NCBI GenBank assembly: GCA_937873375.1
Contig: CALMWK010000072.1
Location: forward strand, 1 to 32,950
Direction of reading: 5' to 3'
DNA: 32,950 nt
Origin: Candidatus Bathyarchaeota archaeon
Lineage (GTDB): Archaea; Thermoproteota; Bathyarchaeia; Bathyarchaeales; Bathycorpusculaceae
Made by a program: the position numbers and the translations under genes. Below the pieces are notes generated by a model that was not told where the DNA came from, searched no databases, and saw only the letters and a program-made list of their open reading frames with translations. Below, piece by piece: positions 2,290 through 23,617 of this stretch. Positions within the stretch are counted from its first letter, which is position 1; every line of letters starts with the position of its first letter.

Positions 2290-4011
2290 ATGCGCAGAAG
2301 CATTGCCTTGGTGTTTATTCTCATCTTAACAGTATCAAGCCTAATGATTGTTAAACTTGCATTGGCTCAACAGTCCACAGTTTACATAAAAGCCACTGGT
2401 GACGTTTACCCCATTGGCGCTCCCGTTCAACGGTCAGGCGACATATACTCATTAACTGATGATGTGTACGGCAAAATCGTCATTGAAAAAGACAACGTAA
2501 TTCTGGATGGCCAAGGACACTCCGTCGTGGGCGGTGCCAATCTCTATAATATTGATACTTCATCTGTGGGAATAGTTTGCGAGGCAAGAAACAACATCAC
2601 CATTAGGGGCACAACTGTTAGGTTTCATGGCTCTGGAATTCAAATCAGCTTCAGCACGAACTGCACAATAGCCAGCAACAACATCACGAGTAACGAATAC
2701 GGCGTTTGGTTATATTATACTTCTAATTGCACCTTACAAAGTAACACCATTGCAGGCAGTTTCCAAGACGCAGTGTGGGTGTACCATTCCTCAAACAATC
2801 ACATGATCCAAAACTCAATCACAGAGCCCAACGAAGGAGTAATTGGTGAACTCATCGGTTTCAAACTTCTGACAGATTCGAACTTCAACTTAATAATTGA
2901 CAACTATATCTGGGCTAACAGCGGTGTTTACCTCAACTCGTCATTTGGCAATCAAATTCTGCAAAACAACATTCAAAGCGGACACGGAATTGACCTAAAT
3001 TTCTCACCAAACAACACAATAAGCAACAATTACGTTAGCGGAATAATAGTCAGCGATGCTTCAGATAGAAATGTCCTCACCAAAAACACTATTTATGGAA
3101 TGGGTGGTGTGACTTTAAACTTTTCATCATACGCAAGTGTTTCCGAGAATCATTTCCTAACCCAAAATCTAATGGATGGAGAATTCGAAGGAATTTTGAA
3201 TATCTACGGCTCTAACCTTGAGCATTTCCTCCACACAATTGACACTTCAAATAACGTCAACGGAAAAACTATCTATTATCTCCAGAACAAAACAGATTTG
3301 CTGATAAATTCCTCTTCATACCCAAACTCTGGATTCATAGCAGTAATTAATTCCAGAAACGTGACAATTGAAAACTTTGCTTTTTCAAACCAAAATGAAG
3401 CGATTTTGCTCGCTTTCACCAACGACTCATGGATACAAAACAACGCGGTAATTAGAAGCATTCACACAATTAGACTTGTTGGAGCATACAACAATGTTGT
3501 CTCAGCGAACACCATTACTAACAATGAGTATGGGTTAAGCTTGGTGCTGTCCAACAACAACACTATCCAAAACAACAGTTTTGTTAACAATTCATGGTAC
3601 GGAATTGGATTGGACAGGTCCAGCACAAACAGGATTCTCAACAACACCATCACGGGAAGCAGATACGATGTCATATTTAGCCACGTCTCGGTAAACAACG
3701 AATTTGTATCCAACAGATTCAACGACCAAACCCCATACTACTACGAGCTCAGTTATCTGGTTGAAGTTGGACAGCCACCTGTCGCTTCACATTCACCAAC
3801 TGAAGAACCAACACTGACGCCCACACAAGAACCAACAACTTTCCCATCATCAAGCCCAACACCACAACAACAAACAGGTGCCCCAAGAACAGCACTTCCA
3901 ACAGAAGTCATTATCATAATAATAGTCTTAATAGCGGTGATAGTAGTTCTTGCTGGAGCAACATTAGTCTTCTACAGAAAAACAAACAGGAAATCAACAG
4001 TAAATAACTAA
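2290..4011 (+). CDS. NosD-like right-handed parallel beta-helix surface protein
   Basis: 573 residues. A signal peptide (MRRSIALVFILILTVSSLMI...) leads into a domain starting KIVIEKDNVILDGQGHSVVG, the classic opening of NosD/PbH1 beta-helix proteins. Many rungs follow with the pattern SNCTIASNNIT / SNNNTIQNNSF, rich in Asn and N-glycosylation sequons. About residues 500-535 are a Pro/Thr/Glu/Ser linker (SPTEEPTLTPTQEPTTFP), then a single membrane span (EVIIIIIVLIAVIVVLAGA) and a basic tail. The architecture says extracellular and membrane-anchored. In this family the helix usually binds or cleaves polysaccharide, but I see no certain catalytic residues. Unlike two neighbours it lacks the PEFPS motif. 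A TATA-like stretch (aataaacttttac) lies 40-50 bp before the start. Confidence 0.85.
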   Translation: MRRSIALVFILILTVSSLMIVKLALAQQSTVYIKATGDVYPIGAPVQRSGDIYSLTDDVYGKIVIEKDNVILDGQGHSVVGGANLYNIDTSSVGIVCEARNNITIRGTTVRFHGSGIQISFSTNCTIASNNITSNEYGVWLYYTSNCTLQSNTIAGSFQDAVWVYHSSNNHMIQNSITEPNEGVIGELIGFKLLTDSNFNLIIDNYIWANSGVYLNSSFGNQILQNNIQSGHGIDLNFSPNNTISNNYVSGIIVSDASDRNVLTKNTIYGMGGVTLNFSSYASVSENHFLTQNLMDGEFEGILNIYGSNLEHFLHTIDTSNNVNGKTIYYLQNKTDLLINSSSYPNSGFIAVINSRNVTIENFAFSNQNEAILLAFTNDSWIQNNAVIRSIHTIRLVGAYNNVVSANTITNNEYGLSLVLSNNNTIQNNSFVNNSWYGIGLDRSSTNRILNNTITGSRYDVIFSHVSVNNEFVSNRFNDQTPYYYELSYLVEVGQPPVASHSPTEEPTLTPTQEPTTFPSSSPTPQQQTGAPRTALPTEVIIIIIVLIAVIVVLAGATLVFYRKTNRKSTVNN

Positions 4012-4102: not shown

Positions 4103-5383
4103 ATGAACAGAACCCTCTTGACGGTAAGTGCTATTTTAGCACTATTAGTCTCTTTAATAGGCACAACCTTTACTTATCCAGTTAGGGCTGACTCTACTGA
4201 TTCTATCCACTTCATTGATTCAGGCGTCACCATTTTCTCCCCAGTAAACACGACCTACTACTATACGAATTTGGTTTTGAATGTTAGTCTGGCGAGTGCA
4301 GGGGTTTTGGGCGGTTTAGACCCAAATATCTCAATGAATTACAGCGTTGATGGCATACACAGCGGTTCAGTTCCCTTGGAGAGCAACCGAGAAATACATA
4401 TAACAACAACGGCGGTTGCAAAGGTTGTTTTGCCAGAATTGCCAAATGGTTCACATTGCTTAACAATTTACTTGTATGGCTTAAACCAAAGAACATATGA
4501 ACCAAAATATCTCTCATTTATCAATACTGTTTACTTTAGCACAGTAGGTAACCCAATTTTAAGTCCAACAACAAGTCCAACATCAATTCCTACGCCTTCA
4601 CCCCCACCTACACCAAGCCCTAGCCCAAGCCCAACTCCTTCACCAAAACCAACTCAAGAACCACGCTTCAGCATGCCCAAAGAGTACCTCAACTACACCA
4701 TCACCACCCAAAACGGCACGGCATTGGCGATAGTTGACGGAACCTACCCAATTTACTGCCCCAACGCAGGCAACGCTGGCAACATATCAATGGTTTACCC
4801 AACCCCACCAGACACAACCAACATCATAATCAAGCTAAACGGCACTCAGCTTAGTTGGACAAACTTCACCGAACAGTTCCCAGATGCCCTGCATCACACC
4901 GCAATCGGCGACTGGGCAATGATTGAAACAGGGTTTAGCCCTTCGGAGTTTTTTGTGCTTTCAATCCACTACGAGCACCCCGTCGCGCGGGTTAACGGTG
5001 GCTACCAGTTCCTGTACGACCTAAACATCATCCCGTACCTATCGGCGTCAAGCCCAAACTCCACAGCCTACTTCAGCCTGAAAACAGAGAATGCCCTGCC
5101 CGACCTTAAAATTTTCACGGTGCCCTCAGATGACACCAGAAACGAGCTGGAGTATGCTGTTCAGAGGCAGGGTGAGGTTCAGGAGGTAACTTTTGCGGTA
5201 ACGTCAGAATACGATAAACCGTTGCCCGGAGATGTGCTGGTGACGTTTTCAGGCAGTGAACCTCAAACCCAAGAACCCCTCCCCACAATTTTGATTGCAG
5301 GTGTTAGCATAGTGGTAGTTGTGGTTGTGTTGGGTGTGGTGGTTTGGCGCAGGAAAAATGTGCGCGGGGACAAGTATGAATAG
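4103..5383 (+). CDS. Anchored surface protein with N-terminal Ig-like domain, function unknown
   Basis: About 426 residues from ATG 4103; an in-frame TTG at 4094 would add three residues and there is no convincing ribosome site for either, so leaderless initiation is possible. Signal peptide, then an Ig-like domain (IFSPVNTTYYYTNLVLNVSL ... LPELPNGSHCLTIYLYG), a Pro/Ser/Thr linker (PTPSPPPTPSPSPSP), and a second domain of about 190 residues (from MPKEYLNYTIT) that I cannot place. One membrane span and RRKN tail follow. The first domain closely resembles the one at the start of the next gene (SPANQTYTTNTLLLNISITY ... LPKLANGSHRLEVYA), so the two look like paralogues by module sharing. The stop overlaps the next start by 8 bp, which indicates co-translation. 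Confidence 0.65.
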   Translation: MNRTLLTVSAILALLVSLIGTTFTYPVRADSTDSIHFIDSGVTIFSPVNTTYYYTNLVLNVSLASAGVLGGLDPNISMNYSVDGIHSGSVPLESNREIHITTTAVAKVVLPELPNGSHCLTIYLYGLNQRTYEPKYLSFINTVYFSTVGNPILSPTTSPTSIPTPSPPPTPSPSPSPTPSPKPTQEPRFSMPKEYLNYTITTQNGTALAIVDGTYPIYCPNAGNAGNISMVYPTPPDTTNIIIKLNGTQLSWTNFTEQFPDALHHTAIGDWAMIETGFSPSEFFVLSIHYEHPVARVNGGYQFLYDLNIIPYLSASSPNSTAYFSLKTENALPDLKIFTVPSDDTRNELEYAVQRQGEVQEVTFAVTSEYDKPLPGDVLVTFSGSEPQTQEPLPTILIAGVSIVVVVVVLGVVVWRRKNVRGDKYE

Positions 5384-6866
5384 AAAACTGTCTGTAACCG
5401 TGTTTGTCCTCTTTGTGCTCTTAGTTTCATTAGCAGCTGAAGCGCAAGTTGTTGAGGTGGCTGAGGCTAATTTTATTCCATACGGAACAGTAACAATCCA
5501 TTCTCCAGCCAACCAAACCTACACCACCAACACCCTTCTGTTAAACATCAGCATCACCTACTCCATGACCACCAACAAAACAGTCGAATACCAAATAGAC
5601 GGGCAACCCCCCATCGCCGTAGCAGGCTTGATTTACAGCGGAGACATACTGTGGCAAACCACAAACACAACCCTGATGCTGCCAAAACTGGCTAATGGCT
5701 CACACCGTCTGGAAGTCTACGCCAAAACAAACACATCACAAGTTTTGCCAGACACGGGCTACGCCAAAGTCGAGTTTACCGTGGATGTTCCTGAAGAAGA
5801 CTCGTGGAAAACAGTGAAACCGATACCTATCCAAGGCGTTCACGGGGCGGCAGTGCTGAACGGAAAAATCTACGCCATAGGCCACACAACCAATCCGCTC
5901 TACGAGTACGACCCCGCAAACAACACGTGGACCTTCAAAACTCAAGTGCCAACATTGCGAGACTACTTTGCAGTAGCCGCCTGCCAAAACAAAATCTACG
6001 TAATAGGTGGCAGAACAGGCAGCGAACCAGTGCACGGCGACGCTATAACCTGCGGCTTAAACCAAGCCTACGACCCCACAACAGGCACGTGGGAAAACAA
6101 AGCGTCTATGCCGACAAACCGAAACCAAATAGAAGCCGCTGTGGTAGAGGGGAAAATCTATGTTATGGGTGGAAGAACCGCAGGACCATACTCCACAGTT
6201 AATACAACAGAAATCTACGACCCCGCAACCGATACGTGGACAGTTGGGGCGCCGATGATTTATCCTGTCACCAGTTTTGCCTCGGCAGTTGTTGACGACA
6301 AAATCTATGCTATCGGCGGTCAAGACGAATTCGACCCCCGCATTAACATTGACAATGTGCAAATATACGACACCGCAGCGGGCACTTGGAGTTTAGGCAA
6401 ATCTGCTCCTGTCACCGTTTGGCAAGCGGCTGCGGGCGCAACCACAGGGGTGGCGGCTCCAAAACGCATCTACGTTATGGGCGGCTCGGGCGGTTTTGCT
6501 GCGGGATTAGACCAGAACTTTGTCTATGACCCTCAAACTGACTCTTGGGCAACTGCGGCACCGCTGCCAACTGCTCGTTATAATCCATCAGTTGCCGTGG
6601 TAGATGACCTGCTGTACATTATGGGTGGTGGTCACGACATGACTTCACTGGCGGTGGTCGAACGATATGCCCTCATAGGATACAATGGAACAGCCATCTC
6701 GCCTGAATTGTCACCCTTGCCATCAGCCCCATCCCCAAGTCCAACCCCTACAGATACCCCTTCAGCTTCACCTACAATCCCAGAGTTTCCGTCGGGTTTC
6801 ACGTTTGCCGTGCTCATCATGGCTGCTGTGCCTCTGGTTATTCTCATGAAAAAGAAAAGGCAATAA
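5376..6866 (+). CDS. Kelch-repeat beta-propeller surface protein with PEFPS C-terminal anchor
   Basis: ATG 5376 is chosen because a signal peptide (MNRKLSVTVFVLFVLLVSLA) starts there and it overlaps the upstream gene by 8 bp; the frame stays open upstream to 5319. After an Ig-like domain (about residues 35-135) come six or so Kelch repeats, each like LNGKIYAIGG ... YDPATDTWT ... MPTNRN, which should close a galactose-oxidase-type six-bladed propeller (about 140-430). No copper ligands of galactose oxidase are apparent, so a binding role is more likely than oxidation. The tail is Pro/Ser/Thr linker, IPEFPSGF, hydrophobic span, KKKRQ, as in the phospholipase-like protein at 734. Together with 4103 it forms a two-gene surface operon. 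Confidence 0.85.
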   Translation: MNRKLSVTVFVLFVLLVSLAAEAQVVEVAEANFIPYGTVTIHSPANQTYTTNTLLLNISITYSMTTNKTVEYQIDGQPPIAVAGLIYSGDILWQTTNTTLMLPKLANGSHRLEVYAKTNTSQVLPDTGYAKVEFTVDVPEEDSWKTVKPIPIQGVHGAAVLNGKIYAIGHTTNPLYEYDPANNTWTFKTQVPTLRDYFAVAACQNKIYVIGGRTGSEPVHGDAITCGLNQAYDPTTGTWENKASMPTNRNQIEAAVVEGKIYVMGGRTAGPYSTVNTTEIYDPATDTWTVGAPMIYPVTSFASAVVDDKIYAIGGQDEFDPRINIDNVQIYDTAAGTWSLGKSAPVTVWQAAAGATTGVAAPKRIYVMGGSGGFAAGLDQNFVYDPQTDSWATAAPLPTARYNPSVAVVDDLLYIMGGGHDMTSLAVVERYALIGYNGTAISPELSPLPSAPSPSPTPTDTPSASPTIPEFPSGFTFAVLIMAAVPLVILMKKKRQ

Positions 6867-7651: not shown

Positions 7652-8005
7652 TTGGCAAACGTATCCCTCAGCGACGTGCGTGACGCCATCAATGTTAGCG
7701 TTGCGGATGTTCCCGATGTTAAGCTTCAGAAAATGGTTAAACGCGCAGCGGTCACGCTGGAACTTGAACTGGGCAAACCAGTTGACTCTGCGGACTGCAC
7801 GGATGCGGAGAAAGAGTGCATTGTTTTGTTGGCGGCGGTTTACGTGGTTTGCTACTTGACGGGTGGTTCCGCGGTGGGTTTGAGTTTTAGTGTGGGTGAC
7901 CAGAATGTGAGTGTGTTGGATAAGGCGCCGCCTCTGTGCGTGTTGCAGCAAGAACTGGAACGCTTGTTGAATGCGTTGAAGCCGCCAGTTGTGGGGAGCG
8001 CCTGA
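7652..8005 (+). CDS. Head-tail connector (adaptor)-like protein
   Basis: 117 residues, starting with TTG behind a good ribosome site. The predicted content is mostly helical: SLSDVRDAINVSVADVPDVKLQKMVKRAAVTLELELG, then CTDAEKECIVLLAAVYVVCYLTGG, then a beta-rich SVGLSFSVGDQNVSV-like turn and a final helix. This helix-hairpin-helix plan and its place first in a neck-tail gene row fit the HK97 gp6/SPP1 gp15 adaptor ring that sits under the portal. The match is by size, position and pattern, not by a diagnostic motif. The next gene starts 5 bp after its stop. Confidence 0.5.
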   Translation: MANVSLSDVRDAINVSVADVPDVKLQKMVKRAAVTLELELGKPVDSADCTDAEKECIVLLAAVYVVCYLTGGSAVGLSFSVGDQNVSVLDKAPPLCVLQQELERLLNALKPPVVGSA

Positions 8006-8010
8006 AAGCT

Positions 8011-9432
8011 ATGCCAGCGGTTCCTGAAGCTTACTACGAGTACGTCATGGAGTACGCGCCGTACCTCTACGTGGTCCCAGATGTTGGACCGGACCTTGAG
8101 TGGGGGAAAGCTGCGTTTGCCGCGGCGTTCGCAGTGGATTTCCTCTTCGAAGCCTACTTTCATCCTCAGTTCGACTCTCGAAGCAGCGAGATAGAAGCGA
8201 AAATCGTGGAGCTTGCCAACTGGATCCTCACGCAGCAATGCACTGACGCAGAAAAGTTGGCTTATGGTGGCTTCAAAAGCACAGAGAACAGAACAGAGTA
8301 CTATGCGGTGGATGCGTGCCGCACGGTGCCTGCGTTGCTGAAAGCCTACGAACTAACAAGCAACACCGCCTACTTGAACAGCGCAACTCTGGCGGGTAAC
8401 GTTTTTCTTTTCAACATGCAGCACAAACCAAGCCTGCTGGGCGTGCACGACCGCTACTACGGCGGATTCGCAAGAGCTGTTTCGATTTCGGACCAGTGGC
8501 TTGCAGAGATGGATGTGGTTTGCCTCCACGGGCTGCCCGCTTTGAGGATGCTGTGTGAAGTAGACCCAACAAGCAAAAGCCAATATGAAGCAGGTATGGT
8601 GGATGTGGTTAATTTTTGTCGTGTTGGCTTGGAGGAGTGCTTTGACCATTATAGTCCGCTGCCTTCGGGAGACGGAGGATGGCACCGCGTAGACCAAGCT
8701 GACCGCATCATAATCGACGATTCACTTGCGTACGCGCTCTGGGGGCTCTACGATTACGAAGGCTACAGCAACACCGTACAGAAAGCCTACAGCTACATCA
8801 ACGCGATAGGCGCTTCATCGGCGTATCCTGCGTATAATCCCGCGGTTTGCTGGGCAGGCTACCTAGACGCTGTCTCAAAAGTTTCCGCCTGTAACTACTA
8901 CGATGCGGTGACGGCTGGGATTCTGGCGCCTATCCGCCGCGACCACGACAAATCCGCCTACGAGTACAGCCACAACATAATTGCGGCACACGCCGACGAG
9001 TTCATGTTTTGGGGCGTCAAGCACGTGGATTTTGGGTTTGTGGAAAATAAGCAGGCGATGGCTACGGTTTGTTGGCTGGGGCAGTTGTTTTTGGGCTATG
9101 AGGTGCCTGTGACGCGGTTCACGCAGGTCCTGAGCAGTAAAGGCGAAAACCTAACCCTCTACCCCATTACAGCAGCGGGTGAAAGAACAGCCTACGGCGA
9201 AGGCATAGACGTCAAAGCCATCGTTCTGCCCGCGAAGAGCGAAGAGTTGCTGCTGGAACCTGGCTATGTTACTCACGATTATTTTGCCATGCACGTGTTT
9301 GCGCCTGTGAGGCGGCACGACAAAATCCGCAGAAACGGCACAGACTACCAAATCCAAACAGTACAAGACTACGCCTTCAAAGGCGAAACTGCTTACCGTA
9401 AAGCCACATGCAGGAGGCTCACAAACCAATGA
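8011..9432 (+). CDS. Neck protein: glycosidase-like alpha/alpha barrel fused to head-closure domain
   Basis: 473 residues from ATG 8011, placed 5 bp after the preceding stop; the frame is open further upstream but overlaps the connector. Residues about 40-365 are repeated amphipathic helical hairpins with aromatic-rich loops (TEYYAVDACRTVPALLKAYE, YLNSATLAGNVFLFNMQH, GGFARAVSISDQWLAEMD, YALWGLYDYEGYSN), as in (alpha/alpha)6 toroid glycosidases and epimerases. Residues about 370-473 have a different character: YGEGIDVKAIVLP, THDYFAMHVFAP, DKIRRNGTDYQIQTVQDY, YRKATCRRL. This resembles head-closure/stopper proteins (HK97 gp7, SPP1 gp16 type). So a structural neck ring seems to carry a sugar-active or sugar-binding barrel. 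Catalytic residues cannot be named with confidence. It overlaps the next gene by ATGA. Confidence 0.6.
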   Translation: MPAVPEAYYEYVMEYAPYLYVVPDVGPDLEWGKAAFAAAFAVDFLFEAYFHPQFDSRSSEIEAKIVELANWILTQQCTDAEKLAYGGFKSTENRTEYYAVDACRTVPALLKAYELTSNTAYLNSATLAGNVFLFNMQHKPSLLGVHDRYYGGFARAVSISDQWLAEMDVVCLHGLPALRMLCEVDPTSKSQYEAGMVDVVNFCRVGLEECFDHYSPLPSGDGGWHRVDQADRIIIDDSLAYALWGLYDYEGYSNTVQKAYSYINAIGASSAYPAYNPAVCWAGYLDAVSKVSACNYYDAVTAGILAPIRRDHDKSAYEYSHNIIAAHADEFMFWGVKHVDFGFVENKQAMATVCWLGQLFLGYEVPVTRFTQVLSSKGENLTLYPITAAGERTAYGEGIDVKAIVLPAKSEELLLEPGYVTHDYFAMHVFAPVRRHDKIRRNGTDYQIQTVQDYAFKGETAYRKATCRRLTNQ

Positions 9433-10406
9433 GTGAAACCGAAGAGGCGGCTGCAACAGTGATGAGGCTACTTAAGGCGAACCTGCGCGTAGTCAAAGAC
9501 GACGGCGGTTTAGCCAGCATAAATGTGGTTAATGAGTTTCAGAACGCCCAAGCCATCAAGGGCTTTGACGGACAGGTCACGGTGGGTTTTGCGGAAAGCG
9601 CTGACCAGAAAATGGAGTTATCGGGAAAATGGCGCAAACGACTACAAGTTCTGCGGGTGAACGTGTGGACATCCGAGCAGGCGGGCTCGGGCGAGTCAGG
9701 CAGGGTTATGCGGGGCAAAATCGTGGAGGAAGTCAACCGTGTCGTGCGGCAGAAACGCAGCCGCCCCAACGAAACCACTTATGAGTTTTACAATTTGGGA
9801 GCGGGCAGTCAAACTCACAAAGCCTACTTTGGCAACGGCGAAGCTTCACCGTATACGCCAAACGTTTGGACGGAGCTGGCAAGTGAGAACTACCAGAGGT
9901 TGTGGGCAAGCGACGACAACCGCCTTCAGCTAAGCGCAGATGAAGATGGCGCGTATGCAACGGTGCTTTTCGGCTTCAAACTGGAATGCAGAGAGAAAAC
10001 TGCCAAAAAAATAGCCGTGTCCTTTGAAGGCTTTGGCACCGCAGCAGGTGGCGACGGCGTCACCGTCAAAGCGTGGAATAGTGAAAGTTTCTTATGGGAA
10101 AACGCGCAGTCAGACGGCGCTGGAGGAACCGACGAAACCATAACCATCACCCTAACAGCGAACGTGCCAAACTACATTGATGAAGACGGGTACGTGTGGC
10201 TGCTTACCCGAACAACCAACCCCGCCAGCGCCCAATCACCCGCGGTTCTGCACTGCGACTACGTGTCCTGCACTGTCACAGTGAACGGCATAACGTACTG
10301 CGACGTTGTCAACTACCGAGATTTAGACCGCGTAGACGGTGTGCCCTTCATTTTCCGCACCGAGTTTGTGGTGAAGTCATGGTTCTTTGAGAACATAGGA
10401 GTGTAA
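9429..10406 (+). CDS. Tail terminator-like protein with inserted beta-sandwich domain
   Basis: 325 residues; ATG 9429 overlaps the previous stop by 4 bp. Residues about 1-115 (GQVTVGFAESADQ, LQVLRVNVWTSEQ, RVMRGKIVEEVNRVVRQ) and about 289-325 (YRDLDRVDGVPFIFRTEFVV) together look like one small tail-terminator/tail-completion fold of the type found between neck and tail-tube genes. Between them, about 117-288, lies a separate beta-rich domain (LFGFKLECREKTAKKIAVSF, TVKAWNSESFLW, ETITITLTANVPNYI, DGYVWLLTRTT), like lectin or galactose-binding beta-sandwiches. This insertion would project from the tail-head junction. Family assignment of both parts is by pattern and position. Confidence 0.5.
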   Translation: MSETEEAAATVMRLLKANLRVVKDDGGLASINVVNEFQNAQAIKGFDGQVTVGFAESADQKMELSGKWRKRLQVLRVNVWTSEQAGSGESGRVMRGKIVEEVNRVVRQKRSRPNETTYEFYNLGAGSQTHKAYFGNGEASPYTPNVWTELASENYQRLWASDDNRLQLSADEDGAYATVLFGFKLECREKTAKKIAVSFEGFGTAAGGDGVTVKAWNSESFLWENAQSDGAGGTDETITITLTANVPNYIDEDGYVWLLTRTTNPASAQSPAVLHCDYVSCTVTVNGITYCDVVNYRDLDRVDGVPFIFRTEFVVKSWFFENIGV

Positions 10407-10413
10407 ATTTGAA

Positions 10414-11271
10414 ATGCCAGAAACATACAGCGCCCATGAAAGCCGCGTCTACTACGTGGACGAGGTGGCTTTTGGGCAAACCCCAACCAACCCCTCCATG
10501 CTAGGCATCCCAGCGGAAAGTTTGGAGCCTGCGGTGAATCCGGGCAACATTAAGCTGCGCGGAGTCGGCAGCGTGGATTTGCAAGCCATCAAAAAAGGAG
10601 TGCGAGCGCCAAGCCTGAAAATCTCGTATCCGCTGCCAAGCGAAGCACCCATAAACTTCTTGCAGTACGCCAGAAACGAACTTGACAAGTCCCTGAGCAT
10701 CCAGCTGCTTTACTATAAGGGTGTTTTTGCGTCTGCCACCGACATAATTTCGCTTTTGTACACGGGGTGCAAATTCCAAAAACTAACCGTGGAGTGCAGC
10801 ATCGAAGATGTTGTGAAAGCGATCGTGGAGTTGCTTGCCCAAAACCTCACCGCGGGCACCGACAAATTTTCAGGTGCCACCTACGCCGACTACGGCGGAG
10901 CGATACCGTTCTATGAGAGCTACATCAAAAAAGACGCCGCCACGCTTGAGCGCGTCACCGACTGGAAATTCACGGTGGAAAACAACCTCAAACAGGTCCC
11001 AGTCATACGCAGCACCAACGGCCACATCCTGAAGTACTTGCCGCATAGGCACCGCAACCTCACAGGCGAAGTGGTTTTCGAGTTTGAAAGCAAAGAAGAA
11101 TTCGACAACATCATCAACGACGCCGAGTTCACGTTGGAGTTTGGCTTGGGCGGAACCAGCAAAGCGGTCTTTAGCAACTGCAAATGGGAAAACGTGGCGG
11201 CACCCACCCGTATTGAAGAGTTGGTGAGCCTGAAAGCGGAGTTTGTCGCCAAAACCTTCACCGTAACCTAA
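10414..11271 (+). CDS. Major tail tube protein
   Basis: 285 residues. Starts MPETYSAHESRVYYVDEVAFGQTP, the N-terminal 'E-x-FGxTP' opening common to tail tube proteins of siphoviruses including archaeal ones. The remainder is beta-rich with repeated strand patterns (SLKISYPLPSEAP, LTVECSIEDVV, DWKFTVENNL, GEVVFEFESKEEF, TLEFGLGGTSKAVFSNCKWE, LVSLKAEFVAK). The GTSKAVFSNCKW...SLKAEF block near the C-terminus is typical of the tube beta-barrel. It follows the tail terminator and precedes the tail-assembly chaperone, the standard order. It should polymerise into the tail tube around the tape measure. Confidence 0.75.
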   Translation: MPETYSAHESRVYYVDEVAFGQTPTNPSMLGIPAESLEPAVNPGNIKLRGVGSVDLQAIKKGVRAPSLKISYPLPSEAPINFLQYARNELDKSLSIQLLYYKGVFASATDIISLLYTGCKFQKLTVECSIEDVVKAIVELLAQNLTAGTDKFSGATYADYGGAIPFYESYIKKDAATLERVTDWKFTVENNLKQVPVIRSTNGHILKYLPHRHRNLTGEVVFEFESKEEFDNIINDAEFTLEFGLGGTSKAVFSNCKWENVAAPTRIEELVSLKAEFVAKTFTVT

Positions 11272-11757: not shown

Positions 11758-11798
11758 ACAGGCAAACCGAGGAGGAAGCCAAGAAACATGAGCGTTGA
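11284..11798 (+). CDS. Tail assembly chaperone, long form made by -1 frameshift (gpGT-like)
   Basis: Reading switches by -1 at 11610-11616, so codons run 11284-11616 and then resume at 11616 (atc cga gcc ...) to the stop at 11796-11798. The product is about 171 residues. The T-type extension (IRAIRRKKPNPAITDFRLCK, then EFGWLPTDLARQPARTIQQF, then LNEVDRQTEEEAKK) is a sensible helical domain and overlaps the next gene start by 11 bp. Many tailed phages make G and GT this way from two overlapping frames between tube and tape measure; the layout here is the same. Frameshifting itself is inferred. Confidence 0.7.
11610..11616 (+). promoter_or_regulatory. Slippery heptamer T_TTT_TTA for -1 frameshifting
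   Basis: In the zero frame the codons are gct ttt tta (Ala-Phe-Leu), giving X_XXY_YYZ with X=T, Y=T, Z=A. This is the same heptamer (U UUU UUA) used by HIV-1 gag-pol. It lies where the zero frame of the chaperone turns to low complexity and where the -1 frame gains a conserved-looking helical domain. I did not find an obvious stable hairpin or pseudoknot just downstream; a purine-rich ggaggaga 10 bases upstream (about 11598-11605) could act as a stimulatory Shine-Dalgarno-like element. Confidence 0.75.
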
Positions 11799-12156
11799 AG
11801 TCCAAATTGACCTTGCAGGCGCGGAGGAGTTCGCGCAGGCACTCAACCGTTTCGATAGTGGTATGCAGAGGCAAATACAGCAGCGCCTTGGCGAGTGGGC
11901 TGAGAATGCCAAAACCCAAGCTACACAGTTGGCACCAGAACGCACGGGTTACTTGCGAAGCACCATCTACACAAAAACCAGGCAGTGGCAGGCAGAAGTT
12001 GGTGCAGAAGCAGCCTACGCCGCAGCCGTGGAATTTGGCACCCGCTACGCCCAAGCGAAACCTTTCATTCAACCTGCACTCGAACAGGGTTTGCCTCAGC
12101 TGGAACCTGCCCTGCTGGGCGCTTTGGATTCGGCTAAGATGGAGGCGGACCTGTGA
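11788..12156 (+). CDS. HK97 gp10-like tail/neck morphogenesis protein
   Basis: 122 residues. Shows the HK97 gp10-like signature: APERTGYLRSTIYT ... EVGAEAAYAAAVEFGTRYAQ and AKPFIQPALEQ. In bacterial phages gp10-like proteins act in head-tail joining or tail completion. Here the gene stands after the chaperone and not before the tube gene, an uncommon order. ATG 11788 overlaps the frameshifted chaperone end by 11 bp, and its own stop overlaps the following GTG start, so the whole row is translationally coupled. Confidence 0.8.
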   Translation: MSVEVQIDLAGAEEFAQALNRFDSGMQRQIQQRLGEWAENAKTQATQLAPERTGYLRSTIYTKTRQWQAEVGAEAAYAAAVEFGTRYAQAKPFIQPALEQGLPQLEPALLGALDSAKMEADL

Positions 12157-12695
12157 GTTTTCGGGAAATAGCTGTCACCATTCGAGCCGTCAACCGTGCC
12201 AGTTCGGAATTTAGCCGCATCCAAACTGACGCGCAAAGCCTCGCCACACAAGTGAAGAGTTTAGGTTCAACGCTTGCTGGACTGGGCGCCGCAGGAACCG
12301 TTGTTGGTTATGTTGCGAACCAGTTCGGTGTTTTGAACGATGCTCAGGCGAAGGTGTTCAACAGCGCCATGATGGTTGTCAGCGTGATGGGTATGTTTAT
12401 GCGTACCAGCACAGGCGTCGCCGTCGCCCAGAAGGTTTACGCAGCAGCAACCGCGTTTGCCACCACCGTCCAAAACAGCCTAAACATCAGCTTCGCCACG
12501 TTCCTCGCACTAACAGGCGTAGGCATAGCGGTCATCGTTGCGGCAGCCGCTGCCATGATAAGCTTCGCCAGCAGCATGAACAAAGCCACCGCCAGCGTGC
12601 AGAACTTCAACAGTGCCACCTCAGAGACACCCCAGCATACTCGTAGTATACAGCGGGCGGGCGAAACCGAGCTTTACAGGCGGGGAGTCGAATAG
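12153..12695 (+). CDS. Very short tape measure-like protein
   Basis: 180 residues with a GTG start overlapping the previous stop. N-terminal helical region (FREIAVTIRAVNRASSEFSR, then DAQSLATQVKSLGSTLAGLG) followed by two strongly hydrophobic stretches (MMVVSVMGMFMRTSTGVAVA; FLALTGVGIAVIVAAAAAMI). This is the composition of siphovirus tape measures: coiled coil plus hydrophobic segments. Position between chaperone/gp10 and hub is right. Tape measures are usually several hundred to over a thousand residues, so this copy is either a genuine short-tail version or has suffered an in-frame internal deletion; the charged C-terminus (IQRAGETELYRRGVE) looks abruptly joined. Confidence 0.55.
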   Translation: MSFREIAVTIRAVNRASSEFSRIQTDAQSLATQVKSLGSTLAGLGAAGTVVGYVANQFGVLNDAQAKVFNSAMMVVSVMGMFMRTSTGVAVAQKVYAAATAFATTVQNSLNISFATFLALTGVGIAVIVAAAAAMISFASSMNKATASVQNFNSATSETPQHTRSIQRAGETELYRRGVE

Positions 12696-12698
12696 TCA

Positions 12699-14285
12699 AT
12701 GAGTGTTACCGCACCAACCGTGGCGGTGGTTTTCGGCTCTGTAGCGCCACCCCAAGGCGACATCGTTGAGTTGAAGGTGCATTTGGGCTGCACCAAAGAG
12801 GTCGGCAGCTTCGAGGCAACGTTGCAGAATTTTGGCGGCAAATACAGCCCCAACGGCACATACCCGCTGAGCGTGGGCGTGGATGGCAGCTTAAGTGTGG
12901 GTCGCGGTGTTACCTGTCCGTTGTTGATGACTTGCCGCGTAGAAGGCATAAAATACGAATCGTCACCCGTGGAGAACTACGTGCATGTTTCGGGCAGGTG
13001 TTGGGGTGAGCGGTTGTTCCGCAGAGTCATCACGAAAGCATACACCAACGTGAAGGGTGAAGACATCGTCAAAGACCTGCTGGACTACTATGTGGGTTTG
13101 AGCCACAACCGCGGCGGCGTAGAACTGGTAGAGGCAACGGATACGACATATGCAAGCCTAAACTACGAAGACACCCCAGTCATCGACGTGCTCAAGTACG
13201 TGGCGGAGAGCGCAGACAAGCAGGGCGTCATAGGCTACGACTTTCGCGTGGCGCCTGACGGCAAATTCGAGTTCTTCTCCAAAGGCACCAAACCCAGCAC
13301 CGTCAGCCTTGGCGAGCGCATAGAATACTACGAGTACACCAGTGATGTGTACAGGGTGCGAAACAAAATTGCGGTTTACGGCGCCGCCGACAAAAGCGAG
13401 CCAGCCGACAAGGATGCGTGGACTGAGAGCTTGACACCGTCGGATGGCGTTTGGACTGCCATAGCGGGCACCGTCAGCTTTGACACCGCGGTCATGGTGA
13501 AGGGTTCGGGCAGCATAAAAACTTTCATAGACGGTTTTCAGTATGCGGGTTGCGTGTTCACCCTAAACGGCGACAAACTCGTAGACACCGCAGCTTACCC
13601 AGTTTTGAACCTGTGGCTCTGCACAGAAACCGCCTATAACGGGAATGTGACCCTGTCGCTGTTTGACAACTTGGACCGCTCAGCTACACGCGAGTTCACG
13701 GTGGGGGCTGGCAAATGGTTCCAAACGCAGGTAGAAGTGGGTGCGGGGGTTGCGGATTTGTGGCAGGTGCAAAGCGGCTTTGACTGGACAAAGATTTGGC
13801 GTGTGCGGGTGATTTGCTGGTTTGGCGATGTGGGCACGGGCGCTTTTTGGGTGGATGGCTTGTTTTTTGGGGGGCGCCGCTATGGCAACGTGCAGGAGAA
13901 CACGAGTAGTCAGGGCAGTTTTGGGTTGCGGGAGCTGGTGGAGGTTAACGAGGAGTTGTGGAGCGACACCGAGTGCACTGGGCGGGCGAATGCGTTGCTG
14001 GCGAATCTGAAGGACCCAGCGGAGAGCCTGACGCTGCAGAGTTCAGTTCTGGATTTTGGCGCCTCGCCAGTATTGGCTGGTGATGTGGTGCATGTTGTGT
14101 TGCCTGTGGAGGGTGTGGAAGCGGATTTTCGCGTTTTGAGCGTGGAGTATCGTGTAGATGGAAAAGCGCAAACGCTTGATGTCACGTTGGAGTTGGGACG
14201 GGAAGCGCCGCTACTTGCAGATTACGTGTATGCGTTGCGTGCGAAAACCGACAGTTTAAGCAGGTACAAAGCAGCGAGGCGGTAG
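12699..14285 (+). CDS. Tail hub/baseplate protein with carbohydrate-binding-like insert
   Basis: 528 residues. Residues about 1-230 follow the pattern of gp27/gpD-type hub proteins: a beta domain (DIVELKVHLG ... SFEATLQNFGGKYSP), the rim segment (VHVSGRCWGERLFRRVITKA, with EDIVKDLLDYYV), and a domain with VIDVLKYVAESADKQG. The hub fold resumes at about 397 (LRELVEVNEELWSD ... LLANLKDPAESLTL ... GDVVHVVLPVEGVEADFRVL). Between them, about 237-396, is a jelly-roll-like beta region (DGVWTAIAGTVSFDTAVMVK, VLNLWLCTETAY, TVGAGKWFQTQVEV, AFWVDGLFFGG) resembling carbohydrate-binding modules. It would form the tail tip. Start ATG is 3 bp after the preceding stop. Confidence 0.6.
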   Translation: MSVTAPTVAVVFGSVAPPQGDIVELKVHLGCTKEVGSFEATLQNFGGKYSPNGTYPLSVGVDGSLSVGRGVTCPLLMTCRVEGIKYESSPVENYVHVSGRCWGERLFRRVITKAYTNVKGEDIVKDLLDYYVGLSHNRGGVELVEATDTTYASLNYEDTPVIDVLKYVAESADKQGVIGYDFRVAPDGKFEFFSKGTKPSTVSLGERIEYYEYTSDVYRVRNKIAVYGAADKSEPADKDAWTESLTPSDGVWTAIAGTVSFDTAVMVKGSGSIKTFIDGFQYAGCVFTLNGDKLVDTAAYPVLNLWLCTETAYNGNVTLSLFDNLDRSATREFTVGAGKWFQTQVEVGAGVADLWQVQSGFDWTKIWRVRVICWFGDVGTGAFWVDGLFFGGRRYGNVQENTSSQGSFGLRELVEVNEELWSDTECTGRANALLANLKDPAESLTLQSSVLDFGASPVLAGDVVHVVLPVEGVEADFRVLSVEYRVDGKAQTLDVTLELGREAPLLADYVYALRAKTDSLSRYKAARR

Positions 14286-20429: not shown

Positions 20430-20754
20430 AACCGTGACTGAACCAACGGTAGAACCCCCAGTAGATTCTATATATAGAGGGGGGGTAGGTCAAGCAGAGC
20501 AGACCCCCCGAACAGCCAAAGACCTCATAGAAACCGAATGGAAAATCATTGACAAACTTCAAAAATTAGCTACAAAAGCACGAAGCGACAAATCAAAAGG
20601 GTTCTACTACCAAACCCTCGCAGGACACATACGAACCCTCGCCACGCTTCTCAAACTCCACGGACAAACAAACCAAACAACCGACATAGCAAAACTTCTC
20701 AGCGAAATCAACAGTGAAGCCAAGAAACTCGCAAAGAGGCTCAAACAAAAATGA
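20422..20754 (+). CDS. Candidate small terminase subunit
   Basis: 110 residues, GTG start. A flexible N-terminus (about 1-28, VTEPTVEPPVDSIYRGG) is followed by a long helical region: DLIETEWKIIDKLQKLATKA, FYYQTLAGHIRTLATLLKLH and IAKLLSEINSEAKKLAKRLK. Small terminases are helical, oligomeric DNA-recognition proteins encoded immediately before the large subunit, and this one overlaps the large-subunit ATG by 4 bp. I see no clear helix-turn-helix, so position is the main argument. Confidence 0.5.
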   Translation: MTETVTEPTVEPPVDSIYRGGVGQAEQTPRTAKDLIETEWKIIDKLQKLATKARSDKSKGFYYQTLAGHIRTLATLLKLHGQTNQTTDIAKLLSEINSEAKKLAKRLKQK

Positions 20755-22127
20755 ACCTTGAGCCCCAAGCAGAAACACAACTCAAAGAAAAACCAGTCTT
20801 CTTCGCAAAACAACTCCTCGACTTTGAACCCTTCAACTACCAAGAAAAACTCCTCAACGACCCAAACCAACGCATCATAGCCTGCATGGGCAGACAAACA
20901 GGCAAAACCACAACCATAGCCGCCAAAGCAATCCACTACGCATACACCCACAAAAAAACAACAACCCTCATCATCAGCCCATCAATGCGCCAAAGCATGA
21001 TAATGTTCGACAGAATCCTCACCCTCATCTACAACAACCCCATCCTAAGCAACAGCATAAAACGCAAAACCCACACCATCATCCAACTCACAACCCAAGC
21101 AAAAATAATCGCACTCCCATGCAGCGAAAACTTACTACGAGGATACACCGCAAACCTAGTCATCGCAGACGAAGCATCATTCATACCCGAAAAAATCATA
21201 ACCGAAATCATCTACCCCATGCTCAGCACCACAAACGGCACAGCTATCCTCCTATCCACACCATGGGACAAAAACCACTTCTTCTACAAAGCCTTCCTCA
21301 ACCCAACCTACAGCACCCACAAAATCCCCTCAAACCAAAACCCACTCATCCCAAACGCATTCCTAAAAGAAATGCAGCAAAACATGACCACAGACGCATA
21401 CCAACGCGAATACCAAGCAGAATTCACCGAAGCCCAAACCAGCTACTTCCAACAAGAACTCATCCGCCAATGCATAGAACACGCACAAAAAATCAACCTC
21501 GAACCCATAACAGACATCGAACAAACCATCCCCAAAGCAGAATACTACGCAGGATTAGACCTCGGAAAACTCCAAGACTACAGCGCCATAGCCATCATCC
21601 AAAAAACCAACGAAGTCCTCAAACTGGTCTACACCCACCAATTCCCACTCGAAACACCCTACACAGAAGTCATAGCCACAACAAACCGCATCCACCAACA
21701 ATTCCACCTACAAAAACTGCTCATAGACCAAACAGGCATAGGAGAACCAATCCTAGAAGCCCTAAAAGAACAAAACATACCCGCAGAAGGCGCAACCCTA
21801 ACCCAAGACACCAAAACCGAACTCCTAACCCACCTCAAACTCATCATGCAACAACAAAAACTCGCCATCCCCTACGACAAACAACTCTGCCAACAAATCA
21901 ACGACCAACAATACGCCTACACCAAAAACGGCAAACTCACTTTTCAGCACCCACCAAACACACACGACGACCAACTCTGGGCACTCGCACTCGCAACATA
22001 CGCCACAAAAACCCAACCATCACCGCACCTGTGGATAGTCGCAAAAACCGCACGCACAGGCAAAACCAAACTCCAAAACCTACGCAAAAAACTCCTCAGC
22101 CACAAAACCACAGGAGACACACGATAA
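20751..22127 (+). CDS. terL: Large terminase subunit (ATPase-nuclease)
   Basis: 458 residues, near the usual length. ATPase: Walker A MGRQTGKT at 46-53, Walker B LVIADEAS at 136-143, coupling motif ILLSTPW at about 166-172. RNase H-like nuclease: D270 in AGLDLGKLQDYSAI, D326 in LLIDQTGIGEP, and D406/D407 in HDDQLWALALA, the three acidic positions for two-metal cutting. All key residues are present, so the protein looks intact. It pumps viral DNA into the capsid through a portal and cuts it; no portal gene is seen here. The coding strand is very poor in G (4 G in the 60 bases from 21841). It ends two bases before the ABC-GNAT gene. Confidence 0.95.
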   Translation: MNLEPQAETQLKEKPVFFAKQLLDFEPFNYQEKLLNDPNQRIIACMGRQTGKTTTIAAKAIHYAYTHKKTTTLIISPSMRQSMIMFDRILTLIYNNPILSNSIKRKTHTIIQLTTQAKIIALPCSENLLRGYTANLVIADEASFIPEKIITEIIYPMLSTTNGTAILLSTPWDKNHFFYKAFLNPTYSTHKIPSNQNPLIPNAFLKEMQQNMTTDAYQREYQAEFTEAQTSYFQQELIRQCIEHAQKINLEPITDIEQTIPKAEYYAGLDLGKLQDYSAIAIIQKTNEVLKLVYTHQFPLETPYTEVIATTNRIHQQFHLQKLLIDQTGIGEPILEALKEQNIPAEGATLTQDTKTELLTHLKLIMQQQKLAIPYDKQLCQQINDQQYAYTKNGKLTFQHPPNTHDDQLWALALATYATKTQPSPHLWIVAKTARTGKTKLQNLRKKLLSHKTTGDTR

Positions 22128-22129
22128 CC

Positions 22130-23617
22130 ATGCACAGACGCAAAACCCGATACTACGAGTATCTCCACATAACCAAGCTCAAACGCACCTACAACAAAAA
22201 AACCGCAACGTTCACGTTCAACATCAGCTACCAAACCACACCCACCCAACGCACAAAACGCACCACCGAAGTCGCAGAAGCATTCGGACTGGGCGCAGAC
22301 CAAACCCAACGCTTCACACTTTATGATAACACGGAAATCAAAATCCGCCCAACAGACATTGTGCTCATCACAGGCGACAGCGGTAGCGGAAAAAGCGCAC
22401 TCCTAAAAGCCATACAAACCGACCTCGCAACGCAAGCCCAAGACACCAAAACGCTGGACATAGAACCAGACAGACCCATAATCGAAACCCTCGGCAAAAC
22501 CACCACAGAAGCCCTAGAAATTCTCAGCAAAGTCGGCTTAAACGACGCCTTCCTCTTCCTACGCACCTACGCGGAGCTGAGCGACGGACAAAAACACCGA
22601 TACCAAATCGCCCGCCTAGCCGAATCACCAACGCAATGGTGGCTACTAGACGAATTCACATCTACGCTGGACAGGGACACAGCCAAAATCGTCGCCTACA
22701 ACCTCCAAAAACTCGCCCGCAAACAAGGCAAAGCCGTCATAGCCGCAACCACCCACAACGACCTCACAGCAGACCTCAAACCAAACGTGCACATCCACAA
22801 ACGCTTCGGCAAAGAAATCACCATAAAATACCATAAAAACGCCAAAGCAGAGCAGTGCAGCCTAACCAAACAAACCACCATCCAAGAAGGCACATACCAA
22901 GACTACAAGCAGCTTAGCCAATTCCACTACCGAGCTGCACGTTGCCCAGCACCCAGAAAAATCTTCAAACTCACACGCAAACGCCAAACCATAGGCGCAA
23001 TCGTCTACAGCTACCCCACACCCTTCTGCTTCGGACGCAGCCAAATCTACAAAACCACCAACATACACCAACTGTACAAAGACGTCAGCCTCATCAGCCG
23101 CGTAGTGATTCACCCAAAATACCGCAGCATAGGCTTAGGCGAAAAACTCGTAGCCCAAACCCTCCCACTCGCAGGCACAGCACACGTTGAAACCATAGCC
23201 GTTATGGCAAAATACAACCCCTTCTTTGAACGAGCAGGCATGCAGAACATAGCCACCAGCCAACCGCACAAAACCGTCACAGACGCCCTAGACAACCTCA
23301 ACATATTAGGCTTCGACCCTGCGCTTCTGGCAAGCAACGCCTACACAGAACAACTAAACAACCCACACATCCGCAAAGCCGTCACAGACATCTTAGAAAA
23401 CCTGTCCAAGAAAAACCCAGCAGTCCGCAAACAAATCGCCAACACCAAAAAAATCTACCCAACACATGAAGAATTCACAGAAAAACTGCTCAGCCTAAAC
23501 GCTGTCCAACTTTCGGCAGCTCTCAAACGCCTAAGCTTCAAAGCCCAACCCAAAGCCTACCTGCACTGGCAAGCTACGGAGCAGGAAATGGCGAAGGCGC
23601 AGGCAAAGTCGAATTAG
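22130..23617 (+). CDS. ABC-type ATPase fused to GNAT acetyltransferase-like domain (COG2401-like)
   Basis: 495 residues from ATG 22130. A much longer open frame begins at 21119 inside terL, but it is a by-product of G/T-poor sequence and its extra part is low-complexity. ATPase domain: Walker A TGDSGSGKSA (about 81-90), signature LSDGQKHRYQIAR (about 150-162), Walker B WWLLDEFTSTLD, and His-switch ATTHND. GNAT domain: SLISRVVIHPKYRSIGLGEK with the P-x-YR-x-x-G-x-G acetyl-CoA loop. A C-terminal helical part follows. The same fusion is known in archaea as COG2401, of unknown role. It is co-transcribed with terL, suggesting a part in packaging or in modifying a viral or host target. Confidence 0.85.
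   Translation: MHRRKTRYYEYLHITKLKRTYNKKTATFTFNISYQTTPTQRTKRTTEVAEAFGLGADQTQRFTLYDNTEIKIRPTDIVLITGDSGSGKSALLKAIQTDLATQAQDTKTLDIEPDRPIIETLGKTTTEALEILSKVGLNDAFLFLRTYAELSDGQKHRYQIARLAESPTQWWLLDEFTSTLDRDTAKIVAYNLQKLARKQGKAVIAATTHNDLTADLKPNVHIHKRFGKEITIKYHKNAKAEQCSLTKQTTIQEGTYQDYKQLSQFHYRAARCPAPRKIFKLTRKRQTIGAIVYSYPTPFCFGRSQIYKTTNIHQLYKDVSLISRVVIHPKYRSIGLGEKLVAQTLPLAGTAHVETIAVMAKYNPFFERAGMQNIATSQPHKTVTDALDNLNILGFDPALLASNAYTEQLNNPHIRKAVTDILENLSKKNPAVRKQIANTKKIYPTHEEFTEKLLSLNAVQLSAALKRLSFKAQPKAYLHWQATEQEMAKAQAKSN

Follow-up and report, generated by a model that had tools for sequence, protein, structure and literature searches.

How does a sugar-enzyme-like barrel come to sit on a protein of the head–tail joint, and what might it do there? 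The question is raised by an open reading frame at 8011-9432 (+) on contig C72 of a 2.0 Mb Bathyarchaeota genome; the stretch of 32,950 nt that was analysed is referred to as the window. A first-pass annotation of the letters alone took the C-terminal ~105 residues of the product for a head-closure ring protein and the first ~365 for an (α/α)6 toroid of sugar-active enzymes. Domains of the sugar-processing-enzyme type are very rarely described at the head–tail joint. Among the virion enzymes of the bacterial viruses cited, those directed at host sugars sit mostly at tail tips, spikes or baseplates.

Domain architecture and fold

The frame at 8011-9432 is uninterrupted and encodes 473 amino acids. 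The mechanically called ORF begins upstream, at GTG 7936; alignments of homologues begin at ATG 8011. A full-length AlphaFold2 model, built on a 69-row alignment, has a mean pLDDT of 94.9 and a pTM of 0.92, and comprises two domains. The N-terminal one (residues 1-362; 8011-9096, +) is an (α/α)6 toroid, most blocks of which lie at 93-99 pLDDT and which also has PDB fold and Pfam matches; its helical hairpins span residues 35-362, the last helix being 350-362. Judged from the secondary structure of the model, a short linker (363-368; 9097-9114, +) leads to the C-terminal head-closure (stopper, Hc1-type) domain (369-473; 9115-9429, +), a β domain with one leading helix that occupies residues 369-469 of the model. 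The split proposed at first pass is thus close to that in the model, and a combination of a sugar-enzyme-type toroid with a head-closure domain is near certain. Taken alone, the 473-residue sequence stays under all family cut-offs: profile searches gave weak matches to C5-epim_C in the N-terminal half (E 0.014 at 104-137) and to the head protein family phrog_939 in the C-terminal half (E 0.2 at 397-471), and a PDB search returned chance amidase matches only.

The C-terminal domain was also modelled separately (pLDDT 89). The best PDB fold matches of this neck-only model are the necks of Pam3, Douge, phiCD508 and XM1 and PBSX xkdH, followed by the SPP1 connector (7z4w), the T1 stopper and RcGTA, with SPP1 gp16 (2kca) lower down; the top matches are all neck or stopper proteins. 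In profile comparison, the neck domain matches an ordinary 113-aa Hc1 protein of Bathyarchaeia, L220 (P 94.5, E 7.7e-8), which itself matches phrog_501 (E 7e-10). The expected likeness to SPP1 gp16 was borne out by fold; HK97 gp7 gave no match in profile comparison. Comparison of the neck profile with PDB sequences yielded chance matches only, and a scan of Bathyarchaeia with PF05521 found none over the cut-off, its top match being a rhamnosidase fusion (L222) described below. When the full model was searched against BFVD, the best matches, including a ‘Closure knob’ and a ‘Head-tail joining protein’, covered the neck part only; a further match, F9VHN7, covers the toroid, and none of the 50 matches listed covers both.

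Model, profile, gene order and naturally barrel-less relatives (see the next section for the last two) support the view that the 473-residue protein serves as a subunit of the head-closure (stopper) ring in a tailed bathyarchaeal provirus, in the structural class of SPP1 gp16 and the Pam3/XM1 neck proteins. With the stopper or head-closure (Hc1) proteins of SPP1 (gp16), XM1, Pam3, Douge and T1 it shares the fold of residues 369-473 and a gene placed between those of adaptor and terminator. It differs in size: most Hc1 proteins in the match list are single domains of about 110-130 aa, whereas here a 362-residue barrel stands in front.

The provirus and its relatives

The Hc1 gene order of Virfam Type 1 is Ad1-Hc1-(Ne1)-Tc1 (PMC4362835). 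In the window, the gene directly upstream encodes a 117-aa head–tail adaptor (gp6/gp15-like; 7652-8005, +), recognised by position and size and by weak matches to phrog_40 (Ad1, E 0.017) and phrog_541 (E 0.063). Downstream lies the gene of a 332-aa product, of which residues ~1-125 (9408-9782, +) form a tail-terminator-like domain, as position and size suggest; an Ne1-type gene is found after the tube gene instead. Of the 108 loci examined, 90 were testable for the adaptor gene, and 87 of these have it directly upstream; a terminator-like gene directly follows in 101 of 105 testable cases. Behind its terminator-like part, the 332-aa product carries an extra β-rich module (9780-10334, +), possibly carbohydrate-binding, with 42% identity (E 2e-41) to the opening stretch of an L222 tail protein; five of 19 members have weak GH114_assoc matches (best 0.0021). 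The terminators of some relatives are short (146-154 aa), equivalent to the part at 9408-9782, and lack this module, which seems to be mobile among ring proteins.

The virus module as a whole begins with a protease-like protein (F3), a cement protein (F6; PF09956, E 1.2e-5), the major capsid protein (F5; PF05065, E 2.7e-7; phrog_267, E 3.9e-14) and F7, a putative portal by size and place. Then come the adaptor, the barrel-neck protein and the terminator-like protein, followed by the tail tube protein (10414-11271, +; PF18906, E 7e-15), a further protein, and a tail completion or Neck1 protein of the HK97 gp10 type (11788-12156, +; phrog_5, E 1e-17). The next gene (12153-12695, +) encodes a probable, very short tape-measure protein of 180 aa, with weak tape-measure matches in several members (best 0.0028) and a length that stays near 180 aa in most loci. 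The module continues with a baseplate or tail hub protein (12699-14285, +; YQBQ-like, PF24032, E 5e-7) and a provisional terminase large subunit (20751-22127, +; NF033889, E 0.0015), a homologue of which follows the module in many relatives. Directly after the terminase, at 22124-23617, an ABC-ATPase is joined to a GNAT-like part; this family (F13) is kept in many relatives. The window is devoid of capsid genes, most likely because the contig begins inside the provirus. Genes for a zinc-dependent phospholipase C-like protein (725-1735), a NosD β-helix protein (2290-4011) and a Kelch/PEF-CTERM-like protein (5319-6866) lie between a virus family at the left edge (F21) and the adaptor, and are therefore apparently inside the provirus.

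Matches to the protein, many of them full length, occur in 44 of 257 Bathyarchaeia genomes, with up to six per genome. As the first-pass annotation had anticipated, viral contigs hold relatives too: a degenerate-pattern scan found at least 251 IMG/VR contigs (80 kept), as well as 28 relatives on genome contigs, and tblastn of an annotated ‘phages’ collection gave no match. The named relatives are nearly all Bathyarchaeota MAGs, and the host class is accordingly taken as Bathyarchaeia. One relative (L077) is on the same contig as the published Bathyarchaeia tailed provirus 1 (BATPV1; JAAKEZ010000002_pro), and the two probably belong to the same virus group; the passages of the BATPV1 paper that were searched make no mention of a neck or glycosidase protein (PMC11705971).

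This breadth bears on the suspicion that two genes were joined near residue 365 by a sequencing error or an assembly chimera. Single errors or decay do occur: a relative at L056:9373-10793 lies in two frames, split at about residue 337, and at L031:8903-11287 the reading frame of another continues through the terminator gene. An artefact nevertheless has almost no probability, since dozens of genomes, and many contigs from separate samples, carry the full-length fusion unbroken.

Some relatives have the neck without the barrel. Five such sister viruses, in the genome L038 and on the IMG/VR contigs L201-L204, have the same neighbours around a bare closure protein of 118-125 aa (that of L202 was called as 81 aa, but the match spans 123 residues). 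The barrel is therefore dispensable for closure and was gained or lost as a unit; it is an accessory to neck assembly and not a universal requirement.

Other domains have been fused to the closure domain. An 843-aa protein at L222:11174-13702, found with the neck profile, contains a rhamnosidase six-hairpin domain over the cut-off (PF17389, E 2.3e-6) together with an Hc1 domain (phrog_501, E 2.1e-8). Its gene is followed by those of a terminator and a Neck1 protein, in a provirus fragment that adjoins host housekeeping genes, and profile comparison detected no similarity between its barrel and that of the 473-residue protein. At L223:4554-6293 (-), a 580-aa protein has a closure domain (E 5e-6) behind a different domain, one common to large signal-peptide-bearing proteins of other Bathyarchaeia (open frames of 500-940 aa; L249-L252). 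Since scans of viral contigs with the L222 and L223 proteins gave no relatives, these two fusions rest on one genome each. L246 and L247 have longer ORFs in which the closure domain comes early and appears to be joined to later tail genes; L248 has a 386-aa ORF that also gave a closure match but was disregarded, being probably an extension out of frame. A topoisomerase VI-B-like ORF at L226:7326-9410 ends in a stretch that matches the neck profile (84 bits) and may be a chimera, a relic or a real fusion; this topoisomerase VI-B match, of L039/L226, is noted as a curiosity only.

The barrel and its conserved face

With its six helical hairpins, the toroid matches (α/α)6 sugar enzymes and not a known neck or capsid fold, so that this half of the first-pass annotation also stands. 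At a probability of 1.00, the PDB fold search with the full model returned a glucose-2-epimerase (8h1n, E 3.4e-6), GH76 mannanases, D-mannose isomerase, cellobiose 2-epimerase, PssZ and a heparin-specific unsaturated glucuronyl hydrolase, with the GH88-type 3wiw among the matches. Normalised on the query, the TM-scores to these enzymes are moderate at about 0.4-0.54; on the side of the targets, most reach about 0.5-0.66.

Sequence profiles point, weakly, in the same direction. When the 69 members were scanned singly, 60 matched C5-epim_C weakly (best 1.2e-5), 10 matched GH88 (best 3.9e-4), and GH76 and GH127 had one match each; the family profile found D-glucuronyl C5-epimerases as its best PDB sequences (E 0.09). 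Membership of the D-glucuronyl C5-epimerase family (PF06662) was not assigned to the 473-residue protein, which scores 15.3 bits against a curated cut-off of 23.3. A homologue of the barrel (P 94, E 1.5e-7) is found elsewhere in the phylum: a cellular, enzyme-like protein of 524 aa that looks secreted and in which C5-epim_C, GH76 and GH88 are all over the cut-off. Like AGE-type 2-epimerases, GH76, GH88/UGL and D-glucuronyl C5-epimerase, the barrel is a six-hairpin toroid with long conserved loops on one face and has weak profile similarity to them; unlike these enzymes, it remains under the family cut-offs and is joined to a virion ring protein.

The barrel is under purifying selection, which is stronger here than on the neck domain (median dN/dS 0.07 versus 0.12; 130 pairs at 80-97% identity). 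Alignments of 25 and 69 rows have dozens of invariant positions at 44-72% identity. Invariant D, E, R, H, W and Y residues are concentrated on one face of the modelled barrel, that which is the active face of such toroids: with segments drawn by hand from the secondary structure of the model, the outer-to-inner loops and inner-helix starts hold 21/57, as against 6/46 (Fisher p 0.007). Among the invariant acidic and basic residues are D101, R104, D221, R226, D236, D237 and D298. The pair D236-D237 is reminiscent of the Asp pair of GH76; no residue of the barrel was matched to a known catalytic mechanism. In sum, the barrel-neck fusion is real, widespread and constrained.

The uneven conservation also bears on a purely structural role, as a spacer or collar that strengthens the head–tail joint and keeps the enzyme fold for its shape. 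Neck proteins can gain decorations, and the appearance of complement C3 and C5 in the PDB fold list illustrates that toroids of this kind occur in non-enzymes and are used without catalysis. Such a role is nonetheless quite improbable, given that conservation is gathered on the loop face and not spread evenly, and that barrel-less relatives keep all their neighbours.

A probable collar at the head–tail joint

The best explanation, to which we assign a probability of roughly 0.65, is that the barrels make up a collar for binding or trimming glycans of the host surface. The C-terminal 105 residues would sit between the adaptor ring and the tail, and the 362-residue barrels would hang on the stopper ring as a collar of most likely six copies, as in known stoppers, or possibly twelve. 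Pointing outward, the barrels could cut, trim or hold S-layer N-glycans or extracellular polysaccharide of the host during adsorption or release. The uses suggested at first pass (release of virions from S-layer glycans, binding of host pili, modification of capsule) are likewise conjectural.

As a general rule, tail length follows the tape-measure protein at about 0.15 nm per residue. If the 180-aa candidate is the tape measure, its length suggests an unusually short tail of only about 27 nm, and the collar would therefore come to lie near the S-layer once the tail tip meets the membrane. The authors of the HFTV1 study quote, for Haloferax, a distance of about 20 nm between S-layer and membrane (PMC12494034).

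The collar might instead be a lectin-like pseudoenzyme that binds glycans without catalysis and makes a reversible first contact with the host surface. The binding face is rich in aromatic residues that never vary (W163, W224, W281, Y284, W334 and W355), which would suit such a role; HFTV1, too, has been proposed to adhere first via a carbohydrate-binding head protein (PMC12494034). However, the invariant acidic and basic residues listed above exceed the usual needs of plain binding, and the second virus, L222, has a rhamnosidase-type barrel. Binding alone is a rather unlikely alternative. Less probable again is that the barrel works not on the host surface but within the cell that makes the virus, or on glycans of the virion itself, for instance by epimerising or trimming capsid or tail sugars during assembly. 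The N-terminus has no evident signal peptide, and epimerases are among the closest family resemblances. Yet an assembly enzyme would hardly need to be delivered by covalent attachment to a ring of the virion, and the adjoining ring protein carries an extra module too.

The glycan-directed collar has looser precedents, and the remark at first pass that no described precedent was known holds in a narrower form: within the open-licence literature, no toroid or whole (α/α)6 sugar-enzyme domain on a stopper was found. P22 gp4 and KP32 TTPA (tail tubular protein A) are likewise neck or tail ring proteins; the former is counted among peptidoglycan hydrolases, and exopolysaccharide-degrading activity has been reported for the latter (PMC5440376). 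They differ in having an adaptor-type helical fold, no separate glycosidase-fold domain and bacterial hosts. The turret protein of HFTV1 (THP, gp31), a predicted deacetylase, resembles the barrel as a predicted glycan-active structural protein of an archaeal tailed virus located away from the tail tip (PMC12494034). It is placed on capsid turrets and has a polysaccharide-deacetylase-like fold, unlike the neck-borne barrel, and no homologue of it came up in the HFTV1 study among the genomes of other haloarchaeal viruses (PMC12494034).

Since sister viruses exist with and without the barrel, its role is open to direct comparison, and the presence of unrelated barrels on one kind of ring protein suggests that the arrangement evolved repeatedly. 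A broader reading, whose chances we would put slightly below even, is that tailed viruses of Bathyarchaeia have repeatedly used the stopper ring to display glycan-active domains drawn from cellular enzymes: the C5-epimerase/GH76/GH88-like barrel in hundreds of virus contigs, the rhamnosidase-type barrel of L222 and the L223 domain common to host surface proteins. With a mobile β module on neighbouring ring proteins and a very short tail, such a collar might work directly at the S-layer.
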